From NCBI GenBank assembly GCA_023954475.1, contig JAMLHW010000002.1, forward strand, positions 434,001-498,000: 64,000 bases of DNA, read 5' to 3'. The position numbers and the translations under genes were made by a program. A model generated the notes under the pieces. The model saw only the letters and a list, made by a program, of their open reading frames with translations. It searched no databases and had not been told where the DNA came from. This DNA is from Anaerolineae bacterium. GTDB taxonomy: Bacteria; Chloroflexota; Anaerolineae; Promineifilales; Promineifilaceae. Below, one piece after another: positions 40,443 to 59,288 of this stretch (the first letter of the stretch is position 1; every line of letters begins with the position of its first letter).

Positions 40443-42074
40443 TCAGCGGCTCAACGCCACATTGATGGTCATGCTATCCGGATCATCCGTACTAAACTCG
40501 AGATAACCCGTTTCGTCCAGATAACCGTCTGCTAATACGACCGCTTCATAACGTACATCACGCGCCAATAATTCAGGTAAAAAGTAACCCCCGCGTGCAT
40601 CTGTTTCGGCAAAGGTGTAGATGGTGTCCAAATCCGGCGCATCGAGCCATGTACCGACATCAACACCTGGCTGAAGCACAATGACCAGTGCACCGGCGAT
40701 AGCTTTGCCGGTTTCAGCATCAGTTATCGTACCACTCATCTGAATAGTATCGGCCGAAACAACACCACCGACTTGAGTCTCTGCCTGTGCCACGACACGC
40801 AGTTCTTCACCCGCACCCAGCAATAGAACGTACTCACCGTCCGGCAACGACTTGCCACCATTTTCCAGCCAGAACGGGTAACAAGACCCGCTAGCATCAC
40901 CATCCCACTCAAACGTACCTTCAGCCACCGACTCGCCATCGATCAGCCAGGCATATCCCAAGGTTTCACCTTCAGTCAAACCAGCGTAGCTGAAGACAGC
41001 AGTCACCCGCGTCGTTCCCGACGGGAAAGTCGAGACCACGTTGACGGCACAGCCCTGATTATCGGCCGATTCGGACCAGCCTTCAAACTGAAACTGCTGT
41101 TGACCACTTGTCGTCGTCACACCGCCCAACGTCGGATACGGGCTGCCGTAGCCGCTGCCAGCCTCAACAGCGCGGATCAGCGCTTTGGCGAGGTTGACCG
41201 GGCGCAGCGCATTGATAAAACCACCAATGGGAATGCAGTTATCACGATCATCCAGAGATCCGTCGCCATTGGTATCTTGTACAACACGACAATCGGTAAT
41301 CTGACCATTTGCGCCGGATGATGCCCTCGTGGGCACACCGACGATGGAACCGGCATCACTGACAGCCAGACCACCGGAGTTGCCGCCGGCGATTGTCGCA
41401 TCTGTCTTGATCCAGGCGCGATTGCCAATCGGATCCTGGCTGGAAAAGCCGGCGATTGTGCCGCGTGTGAATGTAATGGTATCGCCACCAATGCCGGGGA
41501 AACCGAAGATATAGACATTATCGCCTAGATGCAGGTCGTCCGAATTGCCCATCGCCACGTAGGGCAATGCGAGATCAGTCGGCCGAATCGCGGATCCGTC
41601 CAGATTTTGATCGATCTGCAAAACTGCCAGATCGAGATAACCATCGACGGCTACAACTGAAGCGAAAAACGTCGGTACCGGCGGTTCATCCTCATTGGTC
41701 AGCAGCGCAATACCGAGGGCGTCCGGTTCATCTTCCGGCACACCGACCGTCTTGGGACTGGCAACGTGAGCGTTCGTCAGAATCAATCCGGTCGGTGAAA
41801 TCAATGTACCTGATCCTGCGCCAATGATGAAGTAACCGTCTTCAGTATCTTGCAGCATGACGATTTGCACTGTGCGCTTGGCCAGTTGCTGCCGCTGATC
41901 ACTGGTCAAGGTCGTTCCGGCCGATTGCGCCCAGGCGGTCGTCAGGGATAGTGCCCCATCGGCCGAAATGGCACTATCAGCATAAACCGGCACACTGGCT
42001 GTCCGCGATCCGACAAACCACAGCGCAATGAGTAACAGTAAACCAAAGGTAACGAGATATTTTATGCGTTGCAT
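40443..42074 (-). CDS. Secreted trypsin-like serine protease with carboxypeptidase-regulatory-like domain
   Basis: 543 residues. Signal peptide 1-33; chymotrypsin-fold domain about 60-310 with His in TNAHV, Asp in YLDLAVL and Ser in GGNSGG, so the triad is complete. There is no PDZ domain. A loop with DTNGDGSLDDRDN (about 265-280) looks like a calcium-binding dockerin-type turn. A middle beta domain (325-440) and a C-terminal carboxypeptidase-regulatory-like domain (about 450-540: SGTITDAETGKAIAGALV, DARGGYFLPELL) follow. It is coded three bases after the PrsW-like gene and is surely co-transcribed. Confidence 0.9.
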   Translation of the reverse strand: MQRIKYLVTFGLLLLIALWFVGSRTASVPVYADSAISADGALSLTTAWAQSAGTTLTSDQRQQLAKRTVQIVMLQDTEDGYFIIGAGSGTLISPTGLILTNAHVASPKTVGVPEDEPDALGIALLTNEDEPPVPTFFASVVAVDGYLDLAVLQIDQNLDGSAIRPTDLALPYVAMGNSDDLHLGDNVYIFGFPGIGGDTITFTRGTIAGFSSQDPIGNRAWIKTDATIAGGNSGGLAVSDAGSIVGVPTRASSGANGQITDCRVVQDTNGDGSLDDRDNCIPIGGFINALRPVNLAKALIRAVEAGSGYGSPYPTLGGVTTTSGQQQFQFEGWSESADNQGCAVNVVSTFPSGTTRVTAVFSYAGLTEGETLGYAWLIDGESVAEGTFEWDGDASGSCYPFWLENGGKSLPDGEYVLLLGAGEELRVVAQAETQVGGVVSADTIQMSGTITDAETGKAIAGALVIVLQPGVDVGTWLDAPDLDTIYTFAETDARGGYFLPELLARDVRYEAVVLADGYLDETGYLEFSTDDPDSMTINVALSR

Positions 42075-42077
42075 TAA

Positions 42078-43520
42078 TTACGCTCCCGGATCGGCCACGC
42101 GCAGCGTCGCGGCCATGCGTTCAAAAGTGCTCAGCGAGTCAGCAAACGACTCACTACTGTCCTCAAACGAAGCCACAAGCAATTGCCCATTTACAACCAT
42201 ATAGTAATCGACACCTTCAATGACGCTCGGTTTGGCATTCAGTGGCGCAGTGACATAAGCATAATGAACGCGATACACCGGTACGCCATCCATCTCAACC
42301 ATGCCCTGTTCCAACACACGAAAACTGTTCATGCCGCGAGCGCGATTCAAAACATCTACTGCTGCTGCACCGGATGGACTATCGGCAGCAGGCAAAGCCC
42401 GCACACTGACTCGTTGCTGAGGCCGACGAATATTATTGGCAGCCAATAGAACGTTATCGGCGCCGGGCAGTGCCAACCATGACGCGGGCACATCCAGCGT
42501 GATGCCGGACTGCGTTATCGGCCGAGTTCGGTCAAGCGCATTCGCGCCGAGCAACCAACCAGCGCCGAGAGCCAGCATCGTCACCAAAACAACAAGCAGC
42601 GTCGAACTGCGCGTTTGCCCCACTGTGCGTTCCTCGTCCTCCTCTACACCGTCGGCGGCCATGGCAAGGCGGACATCCCGTCGGATGAGCCAACTGAGAA
42701 CAAGTGCAGTACCAATGGCCAATGTCGCAGCCAAGGCCAGGCTCAACCACTGGTTGGCCGGAGTTGATGACGATGTCCCCCCGGTCAACTGTCCGCGCAA
42801 AACGAGGAACAAGCCGTTGAGTGCCGCAGCCACCACAAGTCCGCCGGTCATCCACCACAGCGGCCGCTTTTCGTGCTTTTCGCGCCCCAGAAAATAGCCG
42901 ACGATTCCGGCAAAACTGGCCAGAGCCAGTGTCGTCAGCACGATTTGGATTGCGGCTAGTGTCAGTGATGTAGCCCCATCGCCGGTGATAAAGCGCACGT
43001 TGAGTACGGTAGCGTAGCCCAGACCGACGGCTGTAGCATAGATGATACCGTCTGTCGGACCATCGAATTCGGCCGAATTAAACACCGAAAAACGGACGCT
43101 TGCATACACCAGAAATTGCTGGGCAAAGCCAATTACAAGAATTGCCGCCGCCACATAAGACCATGGCTGATTGGCATACATCCAGGCATTAACCTGAAAA
43201 ACCGAGTGCACTAACGGGATACCGACAGCCGCAGCCACCAAAGCACCGAGGACAAAAACCCCAAGGACCATACCACGTGGTTCCGGCTCAGCCGCATCGC
43301 GCCTGTAAAAAAACCAGAGCCACAACAGCGCCGGAATCAGCGCCATAACAATACCCGCTGCCGCCAGAGCCGTTGGACCAAATTGCGGTGTCAGAAATTG
43401 CTCCAATACATAGATCAGCACAACAAAGCCAATCAACAAGGCGATTGTCACAATGTCAGCCAGCCAGAGTGCGTTTGTATGGGCATCAAATCGGTTGGAA
43501 ACAGATGCTGTTGCATCCAT
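42078..43520 (-). CDS. PrsW-like membrane protein lacking the catalytic glutamates
   Basis: 480 residues: about 9 membrane helices up to 330, then an external 150-residue domain. FFYRRDAAEPEPRGMV and FDGPTDGIIYATAVGLGYA are PrsW signatures. Where active PrsW proteases carry the EE pair the sequence reads AQQ (Gln 134-135), and the EN pair is replaced by LN (173-174). The hydrolase is therefore predicted inactive. The start at 43520 has AGGAGG seven bases upstream; the longer frame begins with a TTG two codons earlier. It is paired with an active exported protease gene, which suggests a regulatory pseudo-enzyme. Confidence 0.82.
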   Translation of the reverse strand: MDATASVSNRFDAHTNALWLADIVTIALLIGFVVLIYVLEQFLTPQFGPTALAAAGIVMALIPALLWLWFFYRRDAAEPEPRGMVLGVFVLGALVAAAVGIPLVHSVFQVNAWMYANQPWSYVAAAILVIGFAQQFLVYASVRFSVFNSAEFDGPTDGIIYATAVGLGYATVLNVRFITGDGATSLTLAAIQIVLTTLALASFAGIVGYFLGREKHEKRPLWWMTGGLVVAAALNGLFLVLRGQLTGGTSSSTPANQWLSLALAATLAIGTALVLSWLIRRDVRLAMAADGVEEDEERTVGQTRSSTLLVVLVTMLALGAGWLLGANALDRTRPITQSGITLDVPASWLALPGADNVLLAANNIRRPQQRVSVRALPAADSPSGAAAVDVLNRARGMNSFRVLEQGMVEMDGVPVYRVHYAYVTAPLNAKPSVIEGVDYYMVVNGQLLVASFEDSSESFADSLSTFERMAATLRVADPGA

Positions 43521-43771: not shown

Positions 43772-43826
43772 GGGATTGAAGGAACAATCCCCTATTTGAT
43801 GGGGCTTGGGATGTCAAGCCCCCATC
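43772..43826 (+). promoter_or_regulatory. Two leader hairpins before the GTPase gene
   Basis: GGGATTG (43772-43778) pairs with CAATCCC (43785-43791). GATGGGGCTTG (43798-43808) pairs with CAAGCCCCCATC (43815-43826) with one bulged C. The second ends at the ribosome-binding site GAGGA (43827-43831), so it could gate translation. Confidence 0.6.
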
Positions 43827-43838
43827 GAGGAACCAAGA

Positions 43839-46487
43839 ATGAACCAACAAATCGACAAGTACGAGGAACTGCGCCATGAGCTGGCAACCCTCCCGTTCAT
43901 CAACGATGCTCAGACAGAACGCTGGGTCAATTTGCAGCGCGTCATCGACGGCAGCCGCGATTATTTAATTCGCGCTGTACCCGAATCGCGCATCAATATC
44001 GACACAGCGCAAAAGATTCTGGAACAACGCACTTACACGCTCGTCTTCTTTGGCGGCACCGGCGTCGGCAAGAGCACACTGATCAACGCACTTCTCGGCC
44101 GAAACCTGCTACCGACCGGTGCTGTCACCGCTGTGACCGGTACCATCGTCTACATCGAACAAGCAGACGAAGATGAAGCCGAATCGTTGACGCTGGAATA
44201 CTGGAATCGCGGCGAATTTGCGCAACGCGTCCGTCGGCTGTGCCAACTGGCTGATATTGACGGCTTCGACATCACCAACGAAGGTGAACGCAACATTGCC
44301 CGCGACGCCATCAATGCCGCCATCACCAATGGCCGCGAACTCGCTAAAACAGAGCGCGACGAATATCTCGAAATCTTGCTCGACTGCATCGCAACCTATG
44401 AAAATCACCGCGAGTTGATGAAAGCCGACACGCCACCACCGATGGATTTCCGTCTCGATGACGAAAGCGCCCTGCTCCATTTGCGCGAGGACGGCTACAA
44501 AGGCAGCGACCAACGCCAGATTCGGCTGGTGCGCTCGGCTACATTCCGCATCCATCCGCCGGCCGACAAACCCAATTTGCTGATGAACGGCTTTTTGCGC
44601 ATCGTCGATGTGCCCGGTCTGGGCGCAGGCATGCGATTGCATGAAGAAATCACGCTCGAAGAGATGAAGAAAGAAGACGCGATGATCGTGCTCGTCACCG
44701 ACGCCGGTCGTCAACGTGTCGATGAAATGAAATCGCTCTCGGCTGTCAACTGGATCAAGGAAAACCGCCTTTACGGATTGCGCGGCAGCGACCTGGACGA
44801 CGCTGCGGCCAAGATTTTCGTCGCCGTCAACGGTGCCAATATTCGCCAGGCATTTGACCGTCTCAACAGTGGCTTGCCGGAAGCAGAGCGTGAGATCAAG
44901 GAAGTGACGCGCCATATCGCCCCTAACTATTGGGAAGCATATGCCGACCGCGGTGACAACCGACCCTACTTCATGATCATGGCGCCGTCAGCACTCTACG
45001 TGCAGGATCCGGAAAACGCCCCGCATGAATTTGCCAGCGAGACTGAACGCATCATGAAAGCGTTCAAAGATCAACTCGGCCCAATCAGCAATGATCCGCT
45101 TGATCCACAAACGGCCGAAAAACTGCTCGAACTGAGCGAAGTTCCGCTGCTGCGCGAACGCCTGATCGACTTCATCCGCAACGAACGCGTTAAAACTCAA
45201 CTGCGCGAAGCGTCGACCCGTGTCCGCACCGCGCTGGAAACGCTGCGTTTGTACTACGAAAAACAATTAGCCGGACGCGGCATCTATCCGCCGTTTGAGA
45301 TCAGTTGGGAATCATTGCAGGAGCGTCGTTATGAAGCCGTTCTCGTGCGTCAGCAAAAAGAATTGCCACGCTCTTATCACGCAGCACTGGTCGAACTGAG
45401 CCAGCGCTACAATGACGACCGCCGCTTCCGCACACTGCTCAATCCTTCTCTGAATGGCATCCGCGAGATGGTGGAAGGCACCGTAGAGCGCGAGATTGAA
45501 ACCCTGCTCGACAGCTATGGCACGGAGCATTGGGATGACCGCGACGTGACCTACGACAACCTGATCTGGGGTACGAGCGGCATCGAGTTACCAATTAAAC
45601 GCATCTTGTTCCAGGTTGAACTGGTGATGCAGGAAGCGGTTTCGCAATATATGCCTGCCCTGGCCGAAGCGATTGCCAACGAAATGGAGCGCACACTACA
45701 GGCGCATGAAATCAAGTCGCGCCTGCAACGCGCCGAGTATGAGCAAGCCTACACGTATTCACTGCCCAATGATCAGGGTGAAGTGTATGCACTGGATGGC
45801 GCTTATGACGCATTGACGGCTCGTGTGCGCAACAATTTCCGCCAGGTTTGCCGCCAGGCTGTAATGTATGAATTGGTTCGCCCGGAGCGTTCGGTGCACT
45901 TCAAGCTGGCTGAAGGCGAACGCGAACTGGCAATGGCAACCAATGAGCGCCTGCTCGATGTCGCGCTGGAAGGTGTCGATGCTGTGCGGCAAGATATGCC
46001 GATGGTGTCGAGTAATAATGTGGGTGGTTCGGCCGAATCTGATCCGGCCATCGAGGAAGACGAGTTTGCTATCCGCATTCTCGATGAACCGACCGGTGCC
46101 GGGTCCGACAGCGGCTTTGAAATCAGTCTACTCGACGGTGAAACCGATGACATGGGTGGCTACGATGACCTCGAAGCCAGCTATGCTGACAAACTGGACG
46201 ACATCCAGACCAAGACCAATCGCATTTTCTCGACCATCATCGACGATCTGTTCAGCGATGACGAATTGCTGCCGCGTTTACGTCGTCTCTTCTGGCTGGA
46301 AGCAACTCGCGCTGAGCGTGACTTCAACAATCACATTGTCAAGCCGATGTTGCGTCAGCATGACCGCCGTCTGCAGCGCGAAGAGTTGCGCGTGGCCATG
46401 GAACCTGATCTGGAGTCGATCTCCGATCTGGAACATCTGATGCGCACCTGGGAAGGATTGCACGAACTGGAAGCGCAAGTTTACTAG
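43839..46487 (+). CDS. Dynamin-like GTPase heading the ubiquitin-like cluster
   Basis: 882 residues. P-loop GGTGVGKST at 72-80, switch threonines in TAVTGT (97-102), and G3 DVPGLG at 257-262; the base-recognition motif is divergent, with VNGAN near 330-334 as candidate. About 150 residues are inserted between switch I and G3. The rest (430-720 and 780-882) is long alpha-helix, as in dynamin stalks, broken by an acidic, probably disordered segment at about 715-785. No membrane helix is obvious. Bacterial dynamin-like proteins shape or repair membranes or resist phage; which applies here is unknown. The ATG at 43839 has GAGGA at good distance. Confidence 0.82.
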   Translation: MNQQIDKYEELRHELATLPFINDAQTERWVNLQRVIDGSRDYLIRAVPESRINIDTAQKILEQRTYTLVFFGGTGVGKSTLINALLGRNLLPTGAVTAVTGTIVYIEQADEDEAESLTLEYWNRGEFAQRVRRLCQLADIDGFDITNEGERNIARDAINAAITNGRELAKTERDEYLEILLDCIATYENHRELMKADTPPPMDFRLDDESALLHLREDGYKGSDQRQIRLVRSATFRIHPPADKPNLLMNGFLRIVDVPGLGAGMRLHEEITLEEMKKEDAMIVLVTDAGRQRVDEMKSLSAVNWIKENRLYGLRGSDLDDAAAKIFVAVNGANIRQAFDRLNSGLPEAEREIKEVTRHIAPNYWEAYADRGDNRPYFMIMAPSALYVQDPENAPHEFASETERIMKAFKDQLGPISNDPLDPQTAEKLLELSEVPLLRERLIDFIRNERVKTQLREASTRVRTALETLRLYYEKQLAGRGIYPPFEISWESLQERRYEAVLVRQQKELPRSYHAALVELSQRYNDDRRFRTLLNPSLNGIREMVEGTVEREIETLLDSYGTEHWDDRDVTYDNLIWGTSGIELPIKRILFQVELVMQEAVSQYMPALAEAIANEMERTLQAHEIKSRLQRAEYEQAYTYSLPNDQGEVYALDGAYDALTARVRNNFRQVCRQAVMYELVRPERSVHFKLAEGERELAMATNERLLDVALEGVDAVRQDMPMVSSNNVGGSAESDPAIEEDEFAIRILDEPTGAGSDSGFEISLLDGETDDMGGYDDLEASYADKLDDIQTKTNRIFSTIIDDLFSDDELLPRLRRLFWLEATRAERDFNNHIVKPMLRQHDRRLQREELRVAMEPDLESISDLEHLMRTWEGLHELEAQVY

Positions 46488-46492
46488 AATCT

Positions 46493-46524
46493 AAAAGCTG
46501 TTGGCTGTCAGCTAACAGCTTTTT
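46493..46524 (+). terminator. Terminator-like hairpin between first and second cluster genes
   Basis: AAAAGCTGTT (46493-46502) pairs with AACAGCTTTT (46514-46523) and a T-run follows. It lies 21 bases before the next start codon, so it may attenuate transcription or stabilise a processed end instead of ending the operon. Confidence 0.55.
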
Positions 46525-46544
46525 GTCGGAAAAGGAGTCACGCT

Positions 46545-47732
46545 ATGGAAGATGCAGCAGACAGATTACTGCGCTCCATCAAAGACGAACAATTGACCGC
46601 GTTTGCGAAACAGTTGGCGGCGTTTATCGCGCAGGAAGCAGGCAATATGGCGCTGAGCGAATCGCGTGCTAAAGCGTTGTTGTTGACAACTGAGTCACTG
46701 GACACGCCGACGCTGAATGATTTCGGCCGAATTGTCTCCAATCCCGCCTACGTCCGTGTCGCGCTGTATGACTTGCTCGACAGTTCTGAACTGGTCGCCG
46801 GTAGCCGCATTAGCGCGATACTTCCGTCAACCGGCTCGGACGCTGCCGTGGATTGGCTGTCACTGATCATCGGCGCCTACGCCCTGAAAGCAGATTATCC
46901 GCTGGACAATCTCGATCCAACCTCCCCCCCCAGCCAGTTCAGCCCGGCGGGGCAAGTCATCAGCCAAACAGCCAGTTTCGTGCGCCGTCAAGTACAGCGC
47001 AGCGCTACTGATCGCGACAAGTTGGCAAGGAAGTTGGCATATTCGGCCGATATGGCACAATCTCTGGACGACATGGCAGTGGCCCCTGAATCAGTTGCGC
47101 CCGTTCCGCCCCATTTCCGCACGCCGATTCCAGTACGCTATCCGGAAGTAAGCAGCCAGACTATCATCATCGACGAAAGCGACGCAGCACGCCGGATACC
47201 GGGCTCTGTCGAACGCGGTGAACCGATCCGCATCACGGAAGATGACCTTGAGCCCCCACAAAGCGCCGTTACCATCATCACCGGCGAATCGCGTCCGGTG
47301 CCAACTGCGCCGCCGTCATCTAACCGTTCGCTTTCTGATGTGCGCATCCCTGACTCGGTGTCAAACGCCGCACGAACAGCGACCCAGGCTGCCAGTGAAA
47401 TGGCATCATCTGTGCGCAAAACCATTTCGGCCGAACCGCTAAAAATGACCAAACTGCGCGTTGTCGTGCAGCGCTACCCTGATGGCCCCGGCATTCCCGG
47501 CGTACAAGTCAAGGTGCAAACAAAAGGCGTGAAAAAATTTGTGGCCGCGACGACCAATGCAGACGGCGTTTTTCTCTGTTCATTGCCCGTGCGGGCGCGC
47601 GCCGGCATGACGTACTATGTCGATGTCATCTGGCCGAATGAACTGGGTGGCAAACGCGAGCGCAAAACGATTACTCTCAACGCCGACCGAGAGCAATTCA
47701 CGTTGCCTTATTACCATTCCGTACTTATTTGA
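46545..47732 (+). CDS. Cluster protein with helical N-terminus and C-terminal beta-sandwich domain
   Basis: 395 residues, no family recognised for the N-terminal 185 residues, which are helical. Residues 190-305 are Pro/Ser/Thr-rich and probably disordered. The last 85 residues (KLRVVVQRYPDGPGIPGVQVK, TNADGVFLCSLP) resemble carboxypeptidase-regulatory-like or Big-type beta-sandwich domains, normally found outside cells, although no signal peptide exists here. AAGGAG precedes the ATG. It is fixed between the GTPase and the E1 gene, so it may be an adaptor or substrate of the pathway; this is inference. Confidence 0.7.
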   Translation: MEDAADRLLRSIKDEQLTAFAKQLAAFIAQEAGNMALSESRAKALLLTTESLDTPTLNDFGRIVSNPAYVRVALYDLLDSSELVAGSRISAILPSTGSDAAVDWLSLIIGAYALKADYPLDNLDPTSPPSQFSPAGQVISQTASFVRRQVQRSATDRDKLARKLAYSADMAQSLDDMAVAPESVAPVPPHFRTPIPVRYPEVSSQTIIIDESDAARRIPGSVERGEPIRITEDDLEPPQSAVTIITGESRPVPTAPPSSNRSLSDVRIPDSVSNAARTATQAASEMASSVRKTISAEPLKMTKLRVVVQRYPDGPGIPGVQVKVQTKGVKKFVAATTNADGVFLCSLPVRARAGMTYYVDVIWPNELGGKRERKTITLNADREQFTLPYYHSVLI

Positions 47733-47767
47733 TCACTGACCACTAATCACTGTCCACTGAACACTGA
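47733..47767. repeat. Five degenerate 7-bp tandem repeats filling the spacer before the E1 gene
   Basis: Units are TCACTGA, CCACTAA, TCACTGT, CCACTGA, ACACTGA. The array starts on the base after the upstream stop codon and ends five bases before the ATG at 47773, so there is no Shine-Dalgarno sequence. A matching array in the same sense relative to the gene lies before the Lgt-like gene (56737-56778). Confidence 0.8.
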
Positions 47768-47772
47768 CAACC

Positions 47773-48948
47773 ATGACAGAAGAATTACTCGTAATCACTG
47801 ATCCCGATACTGACCGTTACCACACGTTTAGTTACATAAGCTGGTGGAAACAGGATATCGTTCGCAATGCGACCGCGCTTGTGATCGGCGCCGGCGCGCT
47901 CGGCAACGAAGTGTTGAAAAACCTGGCATTGATGGGAATCGGCCGAATCATTATCGCCGATTTCGACACCATCGAAGACAGCAACCTGAGCCGTTCCGTC
48001 CTCTTCCGCGAAAAAGATCGTGGACGCCGCAAAGTCGACGTCGCCGCGGAAGCCGTCAAGGCACTCAACCCCGACGTTGAAGTAATGACCTGGCACGGCG
48101 ACATCAATTTCGAACTGGGTCTCGGCGTCTTTCGCCACGTCGACGTCATTATCGGCTGCCTCGACAATCGCGAAGCACGATTAAGCATCGACCGCTTCAG
48201 CCAATCCGTCAATCGCCCGTGGGTCGATGGCGCCATTCAGGAACTGATGGGCATCGTCCGCGTTTTCTGGCCCGGACGCGGTGCCAACTACGAAAGCACC
48301 CTGACAGACCATGACTTTCAAATGATCGGTCTGCGCTACTCTTGTCCCCTGCTGGCAAGGGAAAACGTCCTGCAAGGCAAAGTGCCGACCACACCGACCA
48401 GCGGCTCGATTGTTGCCGCTTTTCAAACGCAGGAAGCGCTCAAAATTATTCACGGCATGGAAGTCGAACCCGGCGTGGGCATGATGATCAATGGTCTGAC
48501 AAACGACATTTACAAAACTGAGTATCCGGTCGTCGCTGATCGGTTACACGCGCCACTCGAGCCAATTGTGCCACTTGCCAATAATTGCAGCGATACGACG
48601 ACGCTTGCCGATCTGCTGACGATTGCACGCGGCATGATCGGGCCGGAAGCAGCGCTGGAATTTTCCGGCGAAATCGTAATCAGCATGACCGATCCGGAGA
48701 GCGGTGACGAACAATTCTATTTCAAGCGCATGGCTCGCTTGACCGAGCGCGAATATCTGTCACCGACATCCGGCCTGCGTCGTGATATGCACCTGACACA
48801 TCGTGTAACCGGTGAGGAAGATTTTCTGAATCGCACGCTGGCCGAGTTCGATCAGCCGCCACTGGCGATTATCCGCGCACGCAACGGTAAGGAACGCATT
48901 TACCTTGAACTGACCGGCGACAAAGACAGATTTTTCCAGTTTGTATAG
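47773..48948 (+). CDS. E1-like/ThiF-family adenylating enzyme
   Basis: 391 residues. Rossmann loop GAGALGNE at 39-46, IADFDTIEDSNLSRSVLFRE with the Mg-binding Asp and Arg/Asn (62-80), Lys 87, and GCLDNREARLSID at 128-140, all as in ThiF/MoeB/E1 proteins. Cys 191 (RYSCPL) precedes the crossover segment TTPTSGSIVAAFQTQEALKII and is the best candidate for the thioester cysteine. The CxxC zinc pairs of MoeB/ThiF are absent. The C-terminal 130 residues form a separate domain. It should adenylate the C-terminal Gly of the Ubl encoded next and hand it to the E2. Confidence 0.9.
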   Translation: MTEELLVITDPDTDRYHTFSYISWWKQDIVRNATALVIGAGALGNEVLKNLALMGIGRIIIADFDTIEDSNLSRSVLFREKDRGRRKVDVAAEAVKALNPDVEVMTWHGDINFELGLGVFRHVDVIIGCLDNREARLSIDRFSQSVNRPWVDGAIQELMGIVRVFWPGRGANYESTLTDHDFQMIGLRYSCPLLARENVLQGKVPTTPTSGSIVAAFQTQEALKIIHGMEVEPGVGMMINGLTNDIYKTEYPVVADRLHAPLEPIVPLANNCSDTTTLADLLTIARGMIGPEAALEFSGEIVISMTDPESGDEQFYFKRMARLTEREYLSPTSGLRRDMHLTHRVTGEEDFLNRTLAEFDQPPLAIIRARNGKERIYLELTGDKDRFFQFV

Positions 48949-49121
48949 GTAGCTCAGACGGTTTTCCGATTGGACTATCGGTTTACCGACAACCAGTACA
49001 ACCACAGACCAACAACTTTGTAAGATAGCTGTTAGAGTAGCTCATTTGAGCAACTTTTAGGAATAAAGTGACGTAAAGTAAGCGTCAATTGCAATATGCA
49101 AGTAAGCAATGGAGAAAGACA

Positions 49122-49388
49122 ATGGCAAGTGTGAAAGTTATCATTTATGATCCAACCGGTTCCAAGAAAACCCCCGTCGAGCTACCGGGAGATGTGCCGA
49201 TGCGCCGTCTGATTCCCGCTCTGGTGACCAAGATGGGTTTGCCAACACAGCAAGGTGCCAATCCGATCACTTATCGTCTGGATCATCGTGATTCCGGCAA
49301 ACGTCTCTCAGAAGATGAGACGTTGAGCCAGGCTGGTGTGAAAGAAGATGATATCCTTAGCCTGTTCCCTGAAGTGACAGCGGGCTAG
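49122..49388 (+). CDS. Ubiquitin-like protein (YukD/EsaB-type), C-terminal Ala-Gly
   Basis: 88 residues. The beta-grasp pattern is clear: strand VKVIIYD, turn, PVELPGDVPMRRLIPALV helix, YRLDHRDSGKRLSEDETLSQAGV and final strand DDILSLFPEV. This is the YukD/EsaB version of the ubiquitin fold. The chain ends in Val-Thr-Ala-Gly, so a terminal glycine is exposed without processing, as required for E1 activation. The ATG at 49122 has GGAG ten bases upstream; an in-frame ATG at 49095 lacks one. E1 and E2 genes flank it directly. No type VII secretion genes are in the window. Confidence 0.88.
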   Translation: MASVKVIIYDPTGSKKTPVELPGDVPMRRLIPALVTKMGLPTQQGANPITYRLDHRDSGKRLSEDETLSQAGVKEDDILSLFPEVTAG

Positions 49389-49420
49389 CAGTTCAACAAC
49401 CAACGGCTAAACATGTTGAG

Positions 49421-49463
49421 GCTATGGAAACCAGGTTTCTTGGCGAAATTCGGTTTCTATAGC
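49421..49463 (+). promoter_or_regulatory. Long RNA stem in the leader of the E2 gene
   Basis: GCTATGGAAACC (49421-49432) pairs with GGTTTCTATAGC (49452-49463), eleven Watson-Crick pairs and one G-U, around a 19-base loop. The loop carries a second GGTTTC copy that could compete for pairing. There is no T-run, so it is not a normal terminator. Confidence 0.55.
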
Positions 49464-49545
49464 TGCCACAACCATGTTGTTGCCAGCAGTTCTCTAACTG
49501 CGAACTGGTCTGATAGTATCATTCTGTACCTATTTCGAGGTAACT

Positions 49546-50082
49546 ATGTCATTCGATATACGTGAAGCCCGATTGCGCAACGACTATGCTCGCGTGCGCG
49601 ATTTGGTCAATCGCAGTGACCTGATCTATATCATCGACAGCGACGGTGACCCACCGGAGCGGTATCGCATACGGTATACATGCCGTAGCGTTGAAAAATT
49701 GATGCCGAACGGGACACCGAAGATACGTGAAGTACACGATGTCGCCATTTACTTGCACGCTGAATATCCGTTAAAGCAGCCTCAACTAAAATGGTTGACA
49801 CCAATCTTCCACCCCAACATTCACATTACTGGTGCAGTGTGTATTGGCGCATGGTGGCCTGCCAAGACGCTTGACGAATTGCTGTTGACTTTGGGCGAAA
49901 TGATTCAATACAAGAATCTGGACCCGAAGGATCCGATGAATTCGAAGGCAGCGGCGTGGTCCATCCGCAACCGGCACCTTTTCCCAATCGACAATCGCGA
50001 TCTGAAAGGCCAATCACTACAAGACATGATCGTACTCGGTGAACCCGAAGCGGATGATCTGGGTATCAACATTCTGGGATAA
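49546..50082 (+). CDS. E2 ubiquitin-conjugating-enzyme homologue (UBC fold)
   Basis: 178 residues. FHPNIHITGAVCIGAWWPAKTL contains the E2 hallmark HPN (89-91) and the catalytic Cys 99, written here as FHPNIHITG then AVCIGAWW. The distance from the HPN Asn to the Cys is eight residues, as in eukaryotic E2s. The upstream strands (HDVAIYLHAEYPLKQPQLKWLTPI) and the downstream LDPKDPMNSKAAAW also follow the canonical fold. It should carry the Ubl as a thioester. The start has GAGGT upstream. Two bases separate its stop from the next start. Confidence 0.93.
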   Translation: MSFDIREARLRNDYARVRDLVNRSDLIYIIDSDGDPPERYRIRYTCRSVEKLMPNGTPKIREVHDVAIYLHAEYPLKQPQLKWLTPIFHPNIHITGAVCIGAWWPAKTLDELLLTLGEMIQYKNLDPKDPMNSKAAAWSIRNRHLFPIDNRDLKGQSLQDMIVLGEPEADDLGINILG

Positions 50083-50084
50083 CG

Positions 50085-50912
50085 ATGGAAAGCGAACACG
50101 ACTTCATGCAGGACATCGATAATCAGGGACTTGGAAGTTCAACGGTTTCGTTTACAGAGCCGCCAGCAAGTAATCATCGGCTACCGCAACATATGCCGCC
50201 GACGCGGGATGAATGTGTTTTGCACGGCAGTTTACCGCTCGACGAGCAGCCGCGTGTCGTCTATTCGCAACAAGCATTGCAGCAGATCGAGGCGCACTGC
50301 ACCAGCAATTTGCGTGTCGAAGTTGGCGGCGCCTTGCTCGGTGTAGCGTATCAGCACAATGATCTGTTGTTTGTGGAAGTGCAGGCAGCGATCCCGGCCG
50401 TTTCGGCCGATCATGGGCCGAGTCATTTTACATTCACGGCCGACGTTTGGGCGCAATTGCACCGGGACCGGGAAGCCTACCCTGAACTGGAGTTTGTGGG
50501 CTGGTTCCACACACATCCCGACCTGGGCGTGTTCTTTTCCTCTGATGACATCGTCGTACACAATGCGGCGTTCCGCCAACCATGGCATGTCGCCCTTGTC
50601 GTCGATCCTGTGCGCAATGAAGCGTGTACATTTGGCTGGAATAGGGGTGAAATCGAGCCGCTACTCGGCTTCTATGAGTTTTTGGCTGATGATCCAGACG
50701 AACTCGACATGCCGCGCAGCCAGATTTCGTGGCGCATTGTGACAGATAATGTATTTGGCGGTCATTATCCCGATGAATATGTGCAATACGCCGTTCGGCC
50801 GAATGAACTCAACCTACCACCAATCAGTCCCTGGATTGGCGCCATTCTCGGCGGACTGGGTTTGGCCGTCAGCATTGTGACGCTGATTCTCGTAATTATC
50901 AAACTATACTGA
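50085..50912 (+). CDS. JAMM/MPN+ metalloprotease with C-terminal membrane anchor
   Basis: 275 residues. All zinc-site residues of the JAMM motif are present: Glu 79 (EVGGALLG), His 142 and His 144 (HTHPDLGVFF), Ser 152 and Asp 155. Such enzymes cut isopeptide or peptide bonds after a ubiquitin-like C-terminus. The last 25 residues are a single hydrophobic helix (about 249-272) ending in Lys-Leu-Tyr, which gives a tail-anchored protein with the protease in the cytoplasm. The first 45 residues are probably disordered. Confidence 0.92.
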   Translation: MESEHDFMQDIDNQGLGSSTVSFTEPPASNHRLPQHMPPTRDECVLHGSLPLDEQPRVVYSQQALQQIEAHCTSNLRVEVGGALLGVAYQHNDLLFVEVQAAIPAVSADHGPSHFTFTADVWAQLHRDREAYPELEFVGWFHTHPDLGVFFSSDDIVVHNAAFRQPWHVALVVDPVRNEACTFGWNRGEIEPLLGFYEFLADDPDELDMPRSQISWRIVTDNVFGGHYPDEYVQYAVRPNELNLPPISPWIGAILGGLGLAVSIVTLILVIIKLY

Positions 50913-50962
50913 CAGTCGCCCACACTGCCGCAACTATTGCACCGCAGTGACATAATCAACTC

Positions 50963-52075
50963 ATGACAGTAGATTCAATTACGACGCCTGAGGCACCTTA
51001 TGTGGTTGCTCTCCGCTTGACACCTCCGGAGATGCAAGGTCGGCTAACCGTTACAATCACGCTTCAAACTGCCGACCAGGTTGGCAGCGGCGTCCATGCA
51101 AAACCGTTGCGTGATTGCACACTGGCCGAATTACAACAATACGCCGACGCGCTGGAACAGTCATTTTGGGAAGCGCACGAAAACAGCACGCTGCAAGCAC
51201 TTCTGGATGACGAATCAATTGCGGTCGATATTGTGCTTGACGACGGAGAACCACAAGACACAGCATTGACCGAAGCGTTGCTGCTGGCACGCGTGATTAT
51301 CAGCGAAGATGACGACAGTGACGACAGTGAGCAACCTACAGCCGAGATGGTTGAAGCGCAGCATGATCCGGTGACCGATGAGAGTGTGGCAGACGTAGCC
51401 ATTGAACCGGATAGCAATGAGGTATCATCGGCCGAAGAAAGTTCTACGCCAACAGTGCTGCCTGAGCCGATTGTAACGATTGTCGAATCGGCCGAAGCAG
51501 CACCATCTGAAACGGCAAAACCAGACAAGCCACAGACCAAAGCGTATTTCGGCCGAATAGCCGGTGGCGTACGCCCCAACGACATCGCACAAAACGACGC
51601 GGTAGACATCCTGCTCGAGGAAAAACCGCTGCGCGCGATGCAGACACACGCCGTTTCCAGTATGCGCCGCGAAGTTGCCGGTGTCATGTTTGGCCCGCAG
51701 CCGGAAAAGCAACCCAATGGCCGCTACGTTGTGCGCGTTATCGACTCCGTCATTGCCCAGCACACACGCATGAGCGGCGCCAGTGTGACCTACACACCTG
51801 AGAGCTGGCGCTACGTCAATGACCAACTGAACACCATGTATCCGGACGGTGATGTTGTCATAGTCGGTTGGTATCATACCCATCCCGGCTTCGGCATATT
51901 TTTATCCGGTATGGATTTATTCATTCACGAGAATTTTTTCACGCAATCCTGGCACATTGCCTATGTACTCGATCCAGTCGCACGACGCAGTGGCTTCTTC
52001 TGCTGGGATCGATCCCAAAAACGCGTCAAAGAGTACGATTTACCCTGGCCGGAGTGGGCCAAACATTCCTGGTAA
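50963..52075 (+). CDS. Second JAMM/MPN+ metalloprotease with N-terminal extension
   Basis: 370 residues. The C-terminal 170 carry the full JAMM set: Glu 237 (REVAGVMFG), His 305 and His 307 (HTHPGFGIFL), Ser 315 and Asp 318. The N-terminal 110 residues form a small alpha/beta domain of unknown type, joined by a very acidic linker (112-185) with repeated Ser-Ala-Glu from the TCGGCCGA palindrome. No membrane helix. Two different JAMM enzymes suggest separate jobs, for example release of conjugates at the membrane and in the cytoplasm. Confidence 0.91.
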   Translation: MTVDSITTPEAPYVVALRLTPPEMQGRLTVTITLQTADQVGSGVHAKPLRDCTLAELQQYADALEQSFWEAHENSTLQALLDDESIAVDIVLDDGEPQDTALTEALLLARVIISEDDDSDDSEQPTAEMVEAQHDPVTDESVADVAIEPDSNEVSSAEESSTPTVLPEPIVTIVESAEAAPSETAKPDKPQTKAYFGRIAGGVRPNDIAQNDAVDILLEEKPLRAMQTHAVSSMRREVAGVMFGPQPEKQPNGRYVVRVIDSVIAQHTRMSGASVTYTPESWRYVNDQLNTMYPDGDVVIVGWYHTHPGFGIFLSGMDLFIHENFFTQSWHIAYVLDPVARRSGFFCWDRSQKRVKEYDLPWPEWAKHSW

Positions 52076-52181
52076 CCGCCAGGCAACCAGGTGCCGACCA
52101 CCGCACTCATTGAGCACAACCCTAACCTTTAGCTCAAGGGCCTGTGCTTTCACTTTACGAAGCACCTGATTTTACGTTACA

Positions 52182-52715
52182 ATGCGTACCGACCAACTCA
52201 ACAATCAAACCACCGACCGGGCAAATCTCAACGGAGAAAACCCGAATCGTTCACGACTCGCAGAGTCCACGTCGGCAAGGCAGACGATGGCAGAACAAGA
52301 GAACGCTCTCATTCGGATAACAGCTGATGACATCAAAGAAGCGAATCAGCTCAGTTTGCATTGTCCGATCTGCGCCGGGCCAGTTGAAAACAACGTCGAC
52401 GAGCCTGAACTGCAACCGGTGCTGTGTGGTAAATGTGGCACGTTGTATCATCGCGCTTGCTGGGAAGGAAACGGTGGCACGTGTGCTGTCCTGGGATGTG
52501 ACCATACCGAAGCACGGCGCTACGGCATCAATCTCGGCCCGATTATGACAATCAAGCCTGATGAGGTTCCATCTGATGCCCAGGTAGACAGAATGCAGCG
52601 GCAGCAGCTGAAATCGGCCGAAAAAGCACCGGGTCGCGTTGCCCCTAAACGAGAACCATCACAAGGTTTCTGGGCTAGATTGTATCAACGGATTCTAGAA
52701 GCGTTCCGCAGCTAG
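52182..52715 (+). CDS. RING-like zinc-finger protein
   Basis: 177 residues from this ATG; an ATG at 52287 (142 residues) is an equally good start. The finger has Cys 61, 64, 82, 85, His 90, Cys 93, 101 and 106 with spacing CxxC-x17-CxxC-x4-H-x2-C-x7-C-x4-C, a two-zinc RING-type treble clef. The C-terminal 20 residues (FWARLYQRILEAFR) form an amphipathic helix that could touch membrane. In this context it is a candidate E3-like factor that recruits the E2. Confidence 0.85.
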   Translation: MRTDQLNNQTTDRANLNGENPNRSRLAESTSARQTMAEQENALIRITADDIKEANQLSLHCPICAGPVENNVDEPELQPVLCGKCGTLYHRACWEGNGGTCAVLGCDHTEARRYGINLGPIMTIKPDEVPSDAQVDRMQRQQLKSAEKAPGRVAPKREPSQGFWARLYQRILEAFRS

Positions 52716-52727
52716 TCGGACTCTCCA

Positions 52728-53381
52728 ATGCCACGTGCTATCCCGATCACCAAGGAGTCGCCATTCTTTGGCGAAATTTGTGCGCTGTGCAAGGAACCGT
52801 TTGCTCCTGGTGATGACATCGTCGTCTGTAATGAATGCGGCACACGGCATCATTCGTTCTGCTGGCAGGAAGTAGGCAACCATTGCACGGCGTACGGCTG
52901 TACGGGACGCGGAGAGATTATTCGGCCGACATACGACGAGCAACCAGCATCCGGGTCGCGTATGGAACGGGCTGCCGCTGCTGCCACCTCTGCCCGGGTT
53001 ATCGACACGCCGCTCACACCAAATGGAAACGCACTTGATACGCCTCAGCCTGAAACGCGGCCCGCTCGCCCACGCCGACGAACCGCTGCGCGTTCCCGTA
53101 CGCGCAGTGCTGCCCCGTCACAACAGACGGTGGTCACCAATTCGGCCGAAACACAGCCGACAGCCTGGCATACGCGCTGGGCGCAAAGCTGCCTGATCAT
53201 CGCCATTGCCATCGCAATTCTGGTATTTGCTTTCGGTTGCTTCGGTTTGTGGGCGATTGCGGATTACGTGATGATTGAGGTGCTCGGCTACGATTATCGG
53301 CCGATCAACCAAAACCTGTTGCCGCAACTCAACACCATGCGCACGACACTTGAAATCGTGGTGCTGCCGTTTTTCCTATGA
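52728..53381 (+). CDS. RING-like zinc-finger protein with membrane helix
   Basis: 217 residues. Ligands Cys 18, 21, 34, 37, His 42, Cys 45, 53 and 58 show the same CxxC-x4-H-x2-C-x7-C-x4-C second half as the preceding protein, so the two are paralogues. A basic, Pro/Arg/Thr-rich linker (70-148) leads to one membrane helix at about 153-179 and a short tail. The finger would face the cytoplasm. Its TGA stop lies directly beside the stop of the convergent metG gene. Confidence 0.86.
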   Translation: MPRAIPITKESPFFGEICALCKEPFAPGDDIVVCNECGTRHHSFCWQEVGNHCTAYGCTGRGEIIRPTYDEQPASGSRMERAAAAATSARVIDTPLTPNGNALDTPQPETRPARPRRRTAARSRTRSAAPSQQTVVTNSAETQPTAWHTRWAQSCLIIAIAIAILVFAFGCFGLWAIADYVMIEVLGYDYRPINQNLLPQLNTMRTTLEIVVLPFFL

Positions 53382-57471: not shown

Positions 57472-58071
57472 ATGACTGATTCGCTATGGATCTTTTTCTT
57501 CATAATCGTTGCATCGATTGCCATAGTTGCCATGCCGGTCATGATCAGTTGGCTTGTCTGGCTCATCCAGACACCACGTGACCGAATCGCAATCCGCACG
57601 TTCGTCGCGACGACCACTTATGAGCATGTGCGCACAAAATTACGCGACAGAAAGCACACACACAGCGGTACGCCGGGTCGAACGTACAATGTTTCGCTGT
57701 ACGATGGTGCAGGCACACTTTACGAACAGCTTGTGAGTATCGGCGCCGGCAACGAGCTGATAGCCGGTGAGCGCCGCGCGATTTTTACGCCACACCGCAG
57801 GCGCAAAAGTCGGCTGGTGTTGGAGCGATTTCGGCCGAAAATCGCACCGGCACTCACCAAAGAAGAGATGCTCAACGGTTTGACGAGCCCGCTGGAGTCG
57901 CAGCGTCGATCGATGCTCGATGCGATTGCCCTCCTATCGCGTTTGCCTGCTCCGGTGTCAAATGCTGTCGCCGAAATTGCTGCAACCGATCCCGAACCAG
58001 ACATTCAGGCTCAGGCAAAAGCGGTACTCAAGCCGTTTGAATTGCAGGCACGCTTCGAAATGTCAGATTGA
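57472..58071 (+). CDS. Single-pass membrane protein of unknown function
   Basis: 199 residues. One membrane helix at about 5-30, then a basic beta-rich region (70-120) and a C-terminal helical pair (125-195: QRRSMLDAIALLSRLPAPVSNAVAEIA, split around MLDAIALLSRL) resembling a HEAT-like repeat. The ATG at 57472 begins five codons after a TTG and directly precedes the helix. No family recognised. Confidence 0.6.
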   Translation: MTDSLWIFFFIIVASIAIVAMPVMISWLVWLIQTPRDRIAIRTFVATTTYEHVRTKLRDRKHTHSGTPGRTYNVSLYDGAGTLYEQLVSIGAGNELIAGERRAIFTPHRRRKSRLVLERFRPKIAPALTKEEMLNGLTSPLESQRRSMLDAIALLSRLPAPVSNAVAEIAATDPEPDIQAQAKAVLKPFELQARFEMSD

Positions 58072-58133
58072 ATAGCGGATTGCATTTCGGCCGAAACGCA
58101 GCCATAAATCCGGTAACATCGATCAATGCACTG

Positions 58134-58139
58134 TATAAT
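58134..58139 (+). promoter_or_regulatory. TATAAT placing the start point on the HtrA start codon
   Basis: TATAAT ends six bases before the ATG at 58146, with no room for a ribosome-binding site. This predicts a leaderless mRNA. The spacing equals that at ruvX (587-592). Confidence 0.55.
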
Positions 58140-58145
58140 TGCGCC

Positions 58146-59288
58146 ATGTCCAGCAAACGATATTTGACCATCTTATTGTTGCTCGTCATTTTTACCGCTT
58201 GCCAAACCGCACCGGAATCCACGATGCCAGCCACCCTCGCGCCGACGGCGACACCGACGCCAGTTCCAACCGCCACGCCACTACCCGACGTGATGCTGGC
58301 TCCCATCGACATCGAAGAGCAATTGATCACCAATCTCTACGAACGCGTCAGCCCGTCGGTCGTCAATATCACGGCGGAAGTGATCAGCTACAGCTTCTTC
58401 TTCGGCGCGATGCCGGGCGAAGGCACCGGATCCGGTTTTGTCATTGATAAGGAAGGTCACATCATCACCAACTGGCATGTCGTCGAGGATGCGGAGAGCG
58501 TCGCAGTCACGTTTGCCGATGAAACCACCGTTCCGGCGCAAATTTTAGGTGCCGATCCGGCCAACGACCTGGCCGTACTTCTGGTGGATGTAACATCTGT
58601 GGAGTTGGTTCCAGTGGAATGGGGAAATTCGGCCGAACTCAAAGTGGGACAACGCGCCATCGCCATTGGCAATCCGTTTGGCCTCGAAAGCACCTTGACC
58701 ACAGGCGTGATCAGTGCGCTTGGTCGGCCTTTGCAGCTTGAAGACGGTCAGTTTGTCTTCGACGTGATCCAGACCGACGCGGCGATCAACCCCGGCAACT
58801 CGGGCGGGCCACTGCTCGATTCGCGCGGACGCGTCATCGGTGTCAACACCGCGATTCGGTCCGATGCGGAGGGGATTGGGTTTACGATTCCGGCCGATAC
58901 GGTGCGGCGTATCGTACCCAGCCTGATTGAACTCGGCACGTATCCGCACCCGTGGACTGGTTTTCTGGGATACGACATCACGCCGAGTCTGGCGGAGGTG
59001 TTACAACTCCCGGTTGAGAGCGGCATTCTCGTGGCGCAGATCTATCGCGATGGTCCAGCGCAGCAGGCAGGCATCCTCGGTGCACAGCGGGAGGTGATCG
59101 TTGGCAACCGGCGCGTGCTGGTTGGCGGCGATATCGTCACGGCGATCGACGGCGTACCGATTGACGATTGGCAGGATTTGCAGAAGTTCTTGCAGTTGCA
59201 GGCAGTGGCTGGCCAGACGGTAACGGCGAGTGTGATACGCGGCGTGCAGGCGATCAATGTCGAGATGGTTTTAGGGGTTCAGCCATAG
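58146..59288 (+). CDS. HtrA/DegP-type serine protease lipoprotein with PDZ domain
   Basis: 380 residues. Lipobox FTAC (Cys 19), a Thr/Pro-rich linker to about 50, protease domain 60-270 with His in ITNWHVV, Asp in ANDLAVL and Ser in NPGNSGG, and a PDZ domain about 280-375 (AQIYRDGPAQQAGIL, GGDIVTAIDGVPI). It is a surface quality-control or regulatory protease. The ATG at 58146 starts the signal peptide exactly; the longer frame to 58068 crosses the -10 box. Confidence 0.94.
   Translation: MSSKRYLTILLLLVIFTACQTAPESTMPATLAPTATPTPVPTATPLPDVMLAPIDIEEQLITNLYERVSPSVVNITAEVISYSFFFGAMPGEGTGSGFVIDKEGHIITNWHVVEDAESVAVTFADETTVPAQILGADPANDLAVLLVDVTSVELVPVEWGNSAELKVGQRAIAIGNPFGLESTLTTGVISALGRPLQLEDGQFVFDVIQTDAAINPGNSGGPLLDSRGRVIGVNTAIRSDAEGIGFTIPADTVRRIVPSLIELGTYPHPWTGFLGYDITPSLAEVLQLPVESGILVAQIYRDGPAQQAGILGAQREVIVGNRRVLVGGDIVTAIDGVPIDDWQDLQKFLQLQAVAGQTVTASVIRGVQAINVEMVLGVQP

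Follow-up and report, generated by a model that had tools for sequence, protein, structure and literature searches.

A PrsW-family membrane protein without its active site, linked to an exported protease in Anaerolineae, is a probable scaffold

The stretch analysed here (the window, 64,000 nt of an Anaerolineae genome) carries on its reverse strand a gene for a PrsW-like membrane protein of 480 residues with an outer domain, followed directly by a gene for an exported trypsin-like protease (Table 1). The open reading frame of the membrane protein is real, running from an ATG at 43520 to a TAA at 42078. Pfam searches clearly place its product in the PrsW family (PF13367, 55.9 bits against a gathering cut-off of 23.5), as the first-pass annotation had proposed; PrsW is the only Pfam match at E-values up to 0.1, with no rhomboid family among the matches, and the EPEP and DG signatures of PrsW are retained. 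The score with NF033739, the PrsW equivalog model, is 83 bits, below the cut-off of 225 bits that marks an active PrsW.

Table 1. Features of the PrsW-like gene and its exported partner in the window
Feature	Coordinates	Strand	Basis
PrsW-like pseudo-protease gene with fused outer domain, 480 aa	42078..43520	(-)	PF13367 E 5.5e-15; AF2 pLDDT 93.3, pTM 0.90
8-helix membrane core, residues 1-305, N terminus inside	42606..43520	(-)	AF2 helices; odd-numbered loops without K/R; TMEM147-like Z 15.1, residues 48-283
Ninth helix, residues 306-329, bears outer domain	42534..42605	(-)	AF2 model; equivalent to N-terminal anchor helix of separate outer-domain gene in most relatives
Outer domain, residues 330-480, PsbP/Mog1/DcrB/LpqN fold	42081..42533	(-)	CyanoP 2xb3 Z 16.1, 142 aa, 2.9 A; weak Pfam hits in relative
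Motif 1 (canonical E75E76xxK) = Q134 Q135	43116..43121	(-)	Alignment with canonical PrsW
Motif 2 (canonical FxxxE then N) = L173 N174	42999..43004	(-)	Alignment with canonical PrsW
Motif 3 (canonical H138) = L200	42921..42923	(-)	Alignment with canonical PrsW
Motif 4 (canonical H175xxxD/N) = N235	42816..42818	(-)	Alignment with canonical PrsW
Partner: exported trypsin-like protease, 543 aa, 3 nt downstream	40443..42074	(-)	PF13365 E 3.5e-23; HtrA/DegP-type domain Z 25.8
Trypsin-like domain, triad H103, D148, S233	41136..41918	(-)	Invariant in 35 aligned partners; H-D-S in 79/82 of wider set
Ig-like beta domain, repeated in many partners	40770..41102	(-)	AF2 strands 327-435; profile matches
C-terminal CarboxypepD_reg-like domain, common to trypsin, M4 and non-catalytic partners	40446..40760	(-)	Profile; PF13620 in relatives

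The catalytic motifs were located by aligning the protein with canonical PrsW sequences, among them two paralogues from the same genome (L001, L002). Four motifs characterise PrsW, and in the Bacillus subtilis protein the substitutions E75A/E76A or H175A affect function (PMC12943098). None of the four (EExxK, FxxxE, His and HxxxD/N) is present in the window protein, and the replacement of the EE and EN pairs by QQ and LN, as originally read from the letters, was borne out by the alignment. The predicted transmembrane helices 4–7 contain neither glutamate nor histidine, so a shift of the alignment register cannot restore the active site; rescue by intact glutamates elsewhere in helices 4–6, named in the first-pass annotation as the observation that would refute its reading, was ruled out by this absence together with the canonical alignment.

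The AlphaFold 2 model of the whole protein is confident (pLDDT and pTM in Table 1), and loops free of lysine and arginine alternate with loops that mostly contain them, which indicates that the N terminus lies inside and the outer domain outside. Comparison of the modelled core with known structures revealed similarity to TMEM147 (Z-score 15.1, 205 aligned residues of 224, 3.8 Å), to chain 9c7u_C of the BOS complex (Z-score 12.6) and to APH-1 (Z-score 12.4), but in helical bundles a Z-score of about 13 can reflect a common arrangement alone, and the comparison covered the window's own proteins, with no canonical PrsW as a control; therefore, the match to TMEM147 and APH-1 supports the fold of the superfamily rather than a special kinship. 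Searches with PDB-chain profiles and Pfam found no sequence similarity of the core to APH-1 or TMEM147.

The outer domain of about 150 residues was modelled with high confidence, and the corresponding domain of a Bacteroidales relative shows weak matches to the DcrB and LpqN families of Pfam. The external domain that had been described as an addition to the PrsW core is thus present, but it is not simply added: it has a PsbP/DcrB-type fold and is encoded by a separate gene in most relatives, where the separate proteins bear their own N-terminal hydrophobic segment. In 28 cases the core and the outer domain are fused in one open reading frame, which suggests that the two act together.

The protease gene begins three nucleotides after the stop codon of the PrsW-like gene (bases 42075–42077 lie between), in agreement with the initial description of the pair. 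The partner has a trypsin fold of the HtrA/Trypsin_2 type with an intact Ser-His-Asp triad, HtrA-like also in the fold comparison of its model; the triad is invariant among the 35 aligned partners, and the protein is accordingly predicted from its sequence to be of the active type, as had been supposed. No Pfam match to a PDZ domain was found in the partner, which contains Ig-like and CarboxypepD_reg-like domains instead. The idea that the latter domain is a genome-wide sorting tag was rejected for the window's genome, where the only copy found is that of the partner. A further protease, of the ordinary HtrA type with trypsin and PDZ domains, is encoded apart from this pair (58068–59288, forward strand). 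The divergent neighbouring gene run (43806–53381, forward strand) looks like a ubiquitin-like conjugation cluster and comprises genes for a dynamin-like GTPase, a protein with a weak CarboxypepD_reg match, ThiF/E1 and E2 proteins, two JAB proteases and two Prok-RING proteins; the product of a 99-residue ORF at 49089–49388 (forward strand) appears ubiquitin-like by eye.

Homologues were collected from 48 of 98 genomes related to that of the window (a count that includes canonical PrsW) and, at an E-value of 1e-15 or better, from 119 of 396 genomes of its class; the loci, at most 15 kb long, were read, and profiles were built from the domains of the window protein and its partner. The recurring arrangement, referred to below as the module, has three parts: a PrsW-like protein with a lost active site, the PsbP/DcrB-fold outer domain and an exported protein that ends in a CarboxypepD_reg-like domain. 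Module members were defined as the 120 PrsW-like proteins with the same kind of outer domain nearby; profile–profile comparison of this clade with canonical PrsW gave a probability of 99.9% (E-value 2.3e-34). A partner on the same strand within 2.5 kb was found for 110 of the 120; seven of the remaining ten lie at contig ends (L061, L088, L097, L115, L122, L157, L159), and three lack a partner despite sufficient room on the contig (L094, L143, L153). Canonical PrsW loci read with flanks of about 5 kb, several of them from the same genomes as modules, had neither outer domain nor partner in 19 of 20 cases, and what was found at the twentieth (L203) is part of that genome's own module, 4.4 kb away. 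No fourth gene recurs beside the module in more than 14 of 127 loci, and the genes that recur up to that number were rejected as module parts, as they look like local synteny or low-complexity matches.

The loss of the active site extends over the whole clade. The glutamate of motif 2 occurs in none of the 120 module members, the histidine of motif 4 in four (asparagine occupies this position in 86) and that of motif 3 in 31, while motif 1 exists in 36 different two-residue states, including QE (42), EE (5) and QQ (3). By comparison, 16 canonical PrsW proteins all keep EE in motif 1, the motif-2 glutamate and both histidines, and none of them lies near an outer domain. With 3 of 120 members, set against 0 and 4 of 120 for the motif-2 glutamate and the motif-4 histidine, QQ represents a local form of a loss that the clade as a whole has undergone; most common is QExxK with LN. 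A survey of whether the QQ form always accompanies the protease gene, suggested by the first-pass annotation, accordingly gave a divided answer: the gene for an exported partner is consistently linked, but QQ is not the defining form and the partner is not always a trypsin. These counts also bear on the explanation that the protein is still a protease: with a changed active site, made up for example of the Glu and Lys that relatives keep in QExxK together with N174 and N235, it would process its partner or some other substrate. Many members do retain the second motif-1 Glu or the Lys, as well as the motif-2 Asn, the asparagine in motif 4 is non-random and five members have EE. On the other hand, motif 1 is highly variable, the motif-2 glutamate has disappeared altogether, helices 4–7 of the window protein contain no Glu or His, and the substitutions in B. 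subtilis PrsW cited above affect function, so that this explanation appears very improbable.

In 13 close pairs, the dN/dS ratio of the PrsW-like domain is 0.04–0.11, in the range of that of the trypsin domain or lower, and the outer domain mostly evolves faster than the PrsW-like domain. Given these ratios, the PrsW-like protein is maintained by strong purifying selection. A merely historical linkage, in which a decaying PrsW gene hitch-hikes beside a useful protease, could account for the missing catalytic motifs and the drifting motif 1, but it is close to refuted by this selection, by the retention of the protein across much of the phylum and through changes of partner, and by the occurrence of the three-gene set in other phyla.

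Trypsin-like domains prevail among the partners, and of the 82 complete ones 79 have H-D-S; in the three others, from L141, L150 and L078, Ser is replaced by Thr in two, and His by Gln in one of two tandem copies (L078). In a second lineage, which includes a Chloroflexota family outside the window's class (L164–L173), an M4 metalloprotease is encoded upstream of the PrsW-like gene; three such partners were checked with Pfam, and HEFTH is present in 26 of 26 long non-trypsin partners. A third lineage has short partners without a recognised catalytic domain. Profile searches found the CarboxypepD_reg-like C-terminal domain in all three kinds of partner (PF13620 in relatives). In the tree of the PrsW-like domain, the M4 and non-catalytic types each form essentially one clade (supports 98 and 100), and the partner type follows the tree. 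Thus, the membrane protein, the outer domain and the C-terminal domain of the partner are constant, and the catalytic part varies. Some loci contain tandem modules with two consecutive PrsW-like genes (L065, L067, L068, L071, L073), certain of them with both trypsin and non-catalytic partners.

The module is common in Anaerolineae and is also present in a further family of Chloroflexota, but only rarely in Myxococcota, Bacteroidota and Deinococcota. The outer-domain profile matched 27 of 301 Chloroflexota genomes at an E-value of 1e-6, about 20 of them strongly; the weaker ones that were read are not modules. Among 296 genomes of the phylum of the Bacteroidales copy the module was found in that copy only, among 189 of the phylum of the Myxococcales locus in three (L205–L207) and among 199 of the phylum of the Bacillota locus in none. 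Further loci from Chloroflexota, Bacillota, Bacteroidota and Myxococcota (L174–L180, L182, L183, L204, L208, L209) were set aside as other DcrB/PsbP-type proteins, with weak matches and no PrsW-like gene in the stretch read at each locus. Deinococcus taeanensis TS293 possesses a complete module of three overlapping genes (LAJ19_RS15020–15030) on plasmid NZ_CP083456.1 (L210, 4920–7917), near transposase and integrase genes; despite the missing motifs, the annotation of the PrsW-like gene there reads glutamic-type intramembrane protease. At two Myxococcota loci of the three (L205, L206) the catalytic His of the trypsin partner is replaced, judged by eye in the translation, so that possibly neither protein of the pair is active there. 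In a tree of a balanced subset of 55 rows, a branch with support 80 separates all inactive forms from canonical PrsW, which favours a single origin of the inactive forms without proving it; in a tree of 149 rows the Bacteroidales copy is grouped with the canonical forms, on a long branch.

Compared with B. subtilis PrsW (YpdC), the window protein belongs to the same family by sequence (PF13367, NF033739) and keeps its signatures, but it lacks all the catalytic motifs and has the outer domain and the exported partner in addition. APH-1 of γ-secretase is remotely homologous to CAAX and PrsW proteases (PMC6588880), and TMEM147 of the BOS complex of the multipass translocon was modelled on APH-1 (PMC7505659). 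Both are non-proteolytic scaffolds that pair with an outer protein, and the predicted fold of the window protein's core is similar to theirs; the QExxR of APH-1 (PMC6588880) resembles the commonest form of the module, QExxK. In contrast, APH-1 has retained two histidines, which are absent from the window protein, and the partners of APH-1 and TMEM147 are nicastrin and nicalin, whereas the module has an exported peptidase with Ig-like domains. The nearest bacterial precedent is SpdC (SpdC/LyrA) of Staphylococcus aureus, a member of the CAAX-protease superfamily without key catalytic residues (PMC7387801), which binds the exported hydrolase SagB directly and modulates it (PMC12272431). The likeness lies in the combination of a superfamily membrane protein with an exported hydrolase, but SpdC belongs to the CAAX/Abi branch, not to PrsW, and SagB is a glucosaminidase. 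We know of no PsbP-fold domain in the SpdC–SagB system. LnsB, a motif-less CPBP protein of S. aureus lipoprotein N-acylation, is required together with a second protein, LnsA (PMC7387801), which differs from the module partner in being an NlpC/P60-type enzyme of the acylation pathway; the lnsA and lnsB genes also lie apart. In Abx1, the predicted catalytic residues are dispensable (PMC3578759). An analogy with iRhoms had been offered at the outset, and functionally it is fair, iRhom2 being a pseudo-protease with an added outer domain that controls the active protease ADAM17 (PMC11248996); however, iRhom is eukaryotic and has the rhomboid fold, unrelated to PrsW, and the inactive members of the protein's own superfamily, APH-1, SpdC and LnsB, are closer.

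We therefore consider that the window protein is probably a PrsW-family pseudo-protease whose non-cleaving membrane core serves as a scaffold for the exported partner. This reading is based on the absence of all four motifs and, clade-wide, of the motif-2 glutamate, the low dN/dS ratios and the linkage to a partner in 110 of 120 members; on the switching of partner types under one C-terminal domain, the 28 fusions and the three-gene sets in Deinococcota, Myxococcota and Bacteroidota; and on the resemblance of the core to the non-proteolytic scaffolds TMEM147 and APH-1 and the binding and modulation of SagB by SpdC. Helices 1–8 would lie in the membrane and the ninth would hold the PsbP/DcrB-fold domain outside; the core and the outer domain would dock the co-expressed exported protein, probably via its C-terminal Ig-like/CarboxypepD_reg-like domain, and the docked partner might be held, positioned or helped to mature at the outer face of the membrane. 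Proteolysis, where present, would be carried out by the trypsin or thermolysin domain of the partner. Adjacency and co-inheritance may also be the sign of a shared pathway without contact between the proteins, and the three members that have no partner (L094, L143, L153) and the limited meaning of fold matches between helical bundles weigh against the scaffold.

Two other roles were weighed against the scaffold. As a conduit or assembly factor, the membrane protein might move the exported protein, or the C-terminal domain of that protein, through or into the membrane instead of holding the mature form. Toxin export through a conduit formed by PrsW cores has been proposed (PMC3482391), a lipid-filled cavity of the multipass translocon is lined by TMEM147 (PMC7505659), and the outer domain has the fold of PsbP, a photosystem II subunit, and of the effector chaperones SciW and EagT6; yet the partners begin with an ordinary signal-type helix, so that export by Sec is expected, and the PrsW conduit is itself only a proposal, which makes this role unlikely. 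Less probable still is a signal receiver, whose outer domain would sense a ligand or a cleavage product of the partner and relay the signal to the cytoplasm. Several relatives (L045, L164–L173) bear an N-terminal CCxC...C..H segment, probably zinc-binding, which would face the cytoplasm and through which some of them might signal, and Abx1 and SpdC, both of the Abi family, act on sensor kinases (PMC3578759, PMC12272431), but this segment is absent from the window protein and no neighbour gene recurs broadly beyond the module's own parts.

A broader version of the scaffold reading, to which we give only tentative credence, would make the module a bacterial counterpart of the APH-1 and TMEM147 scaffolds: the inactivated PrsW core and the outer domain would form a general platform for the docking of exported proteins that all bear one C-terminal domain as a mark and whose catalytic part can be exchanged (trypsin, thermolysin or none). 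Loss of catalysis within the superfamily was already known from APH-1, SpdC and LnsB. No published description of the module was found in the open-licence literature, nor of a PrsW branch without the active site, its loss kept across much of a phylum, in which the catalytic class of the partner changed under one constant partner domain. The module is also an annotation trap, as the label of the D. taeanensis copy shows. With the module, the scaffold role of a former intramembrane protease becomes testable in a small bacterial operon, and a named strain, D. taeanensis TS293, carries a complete one.
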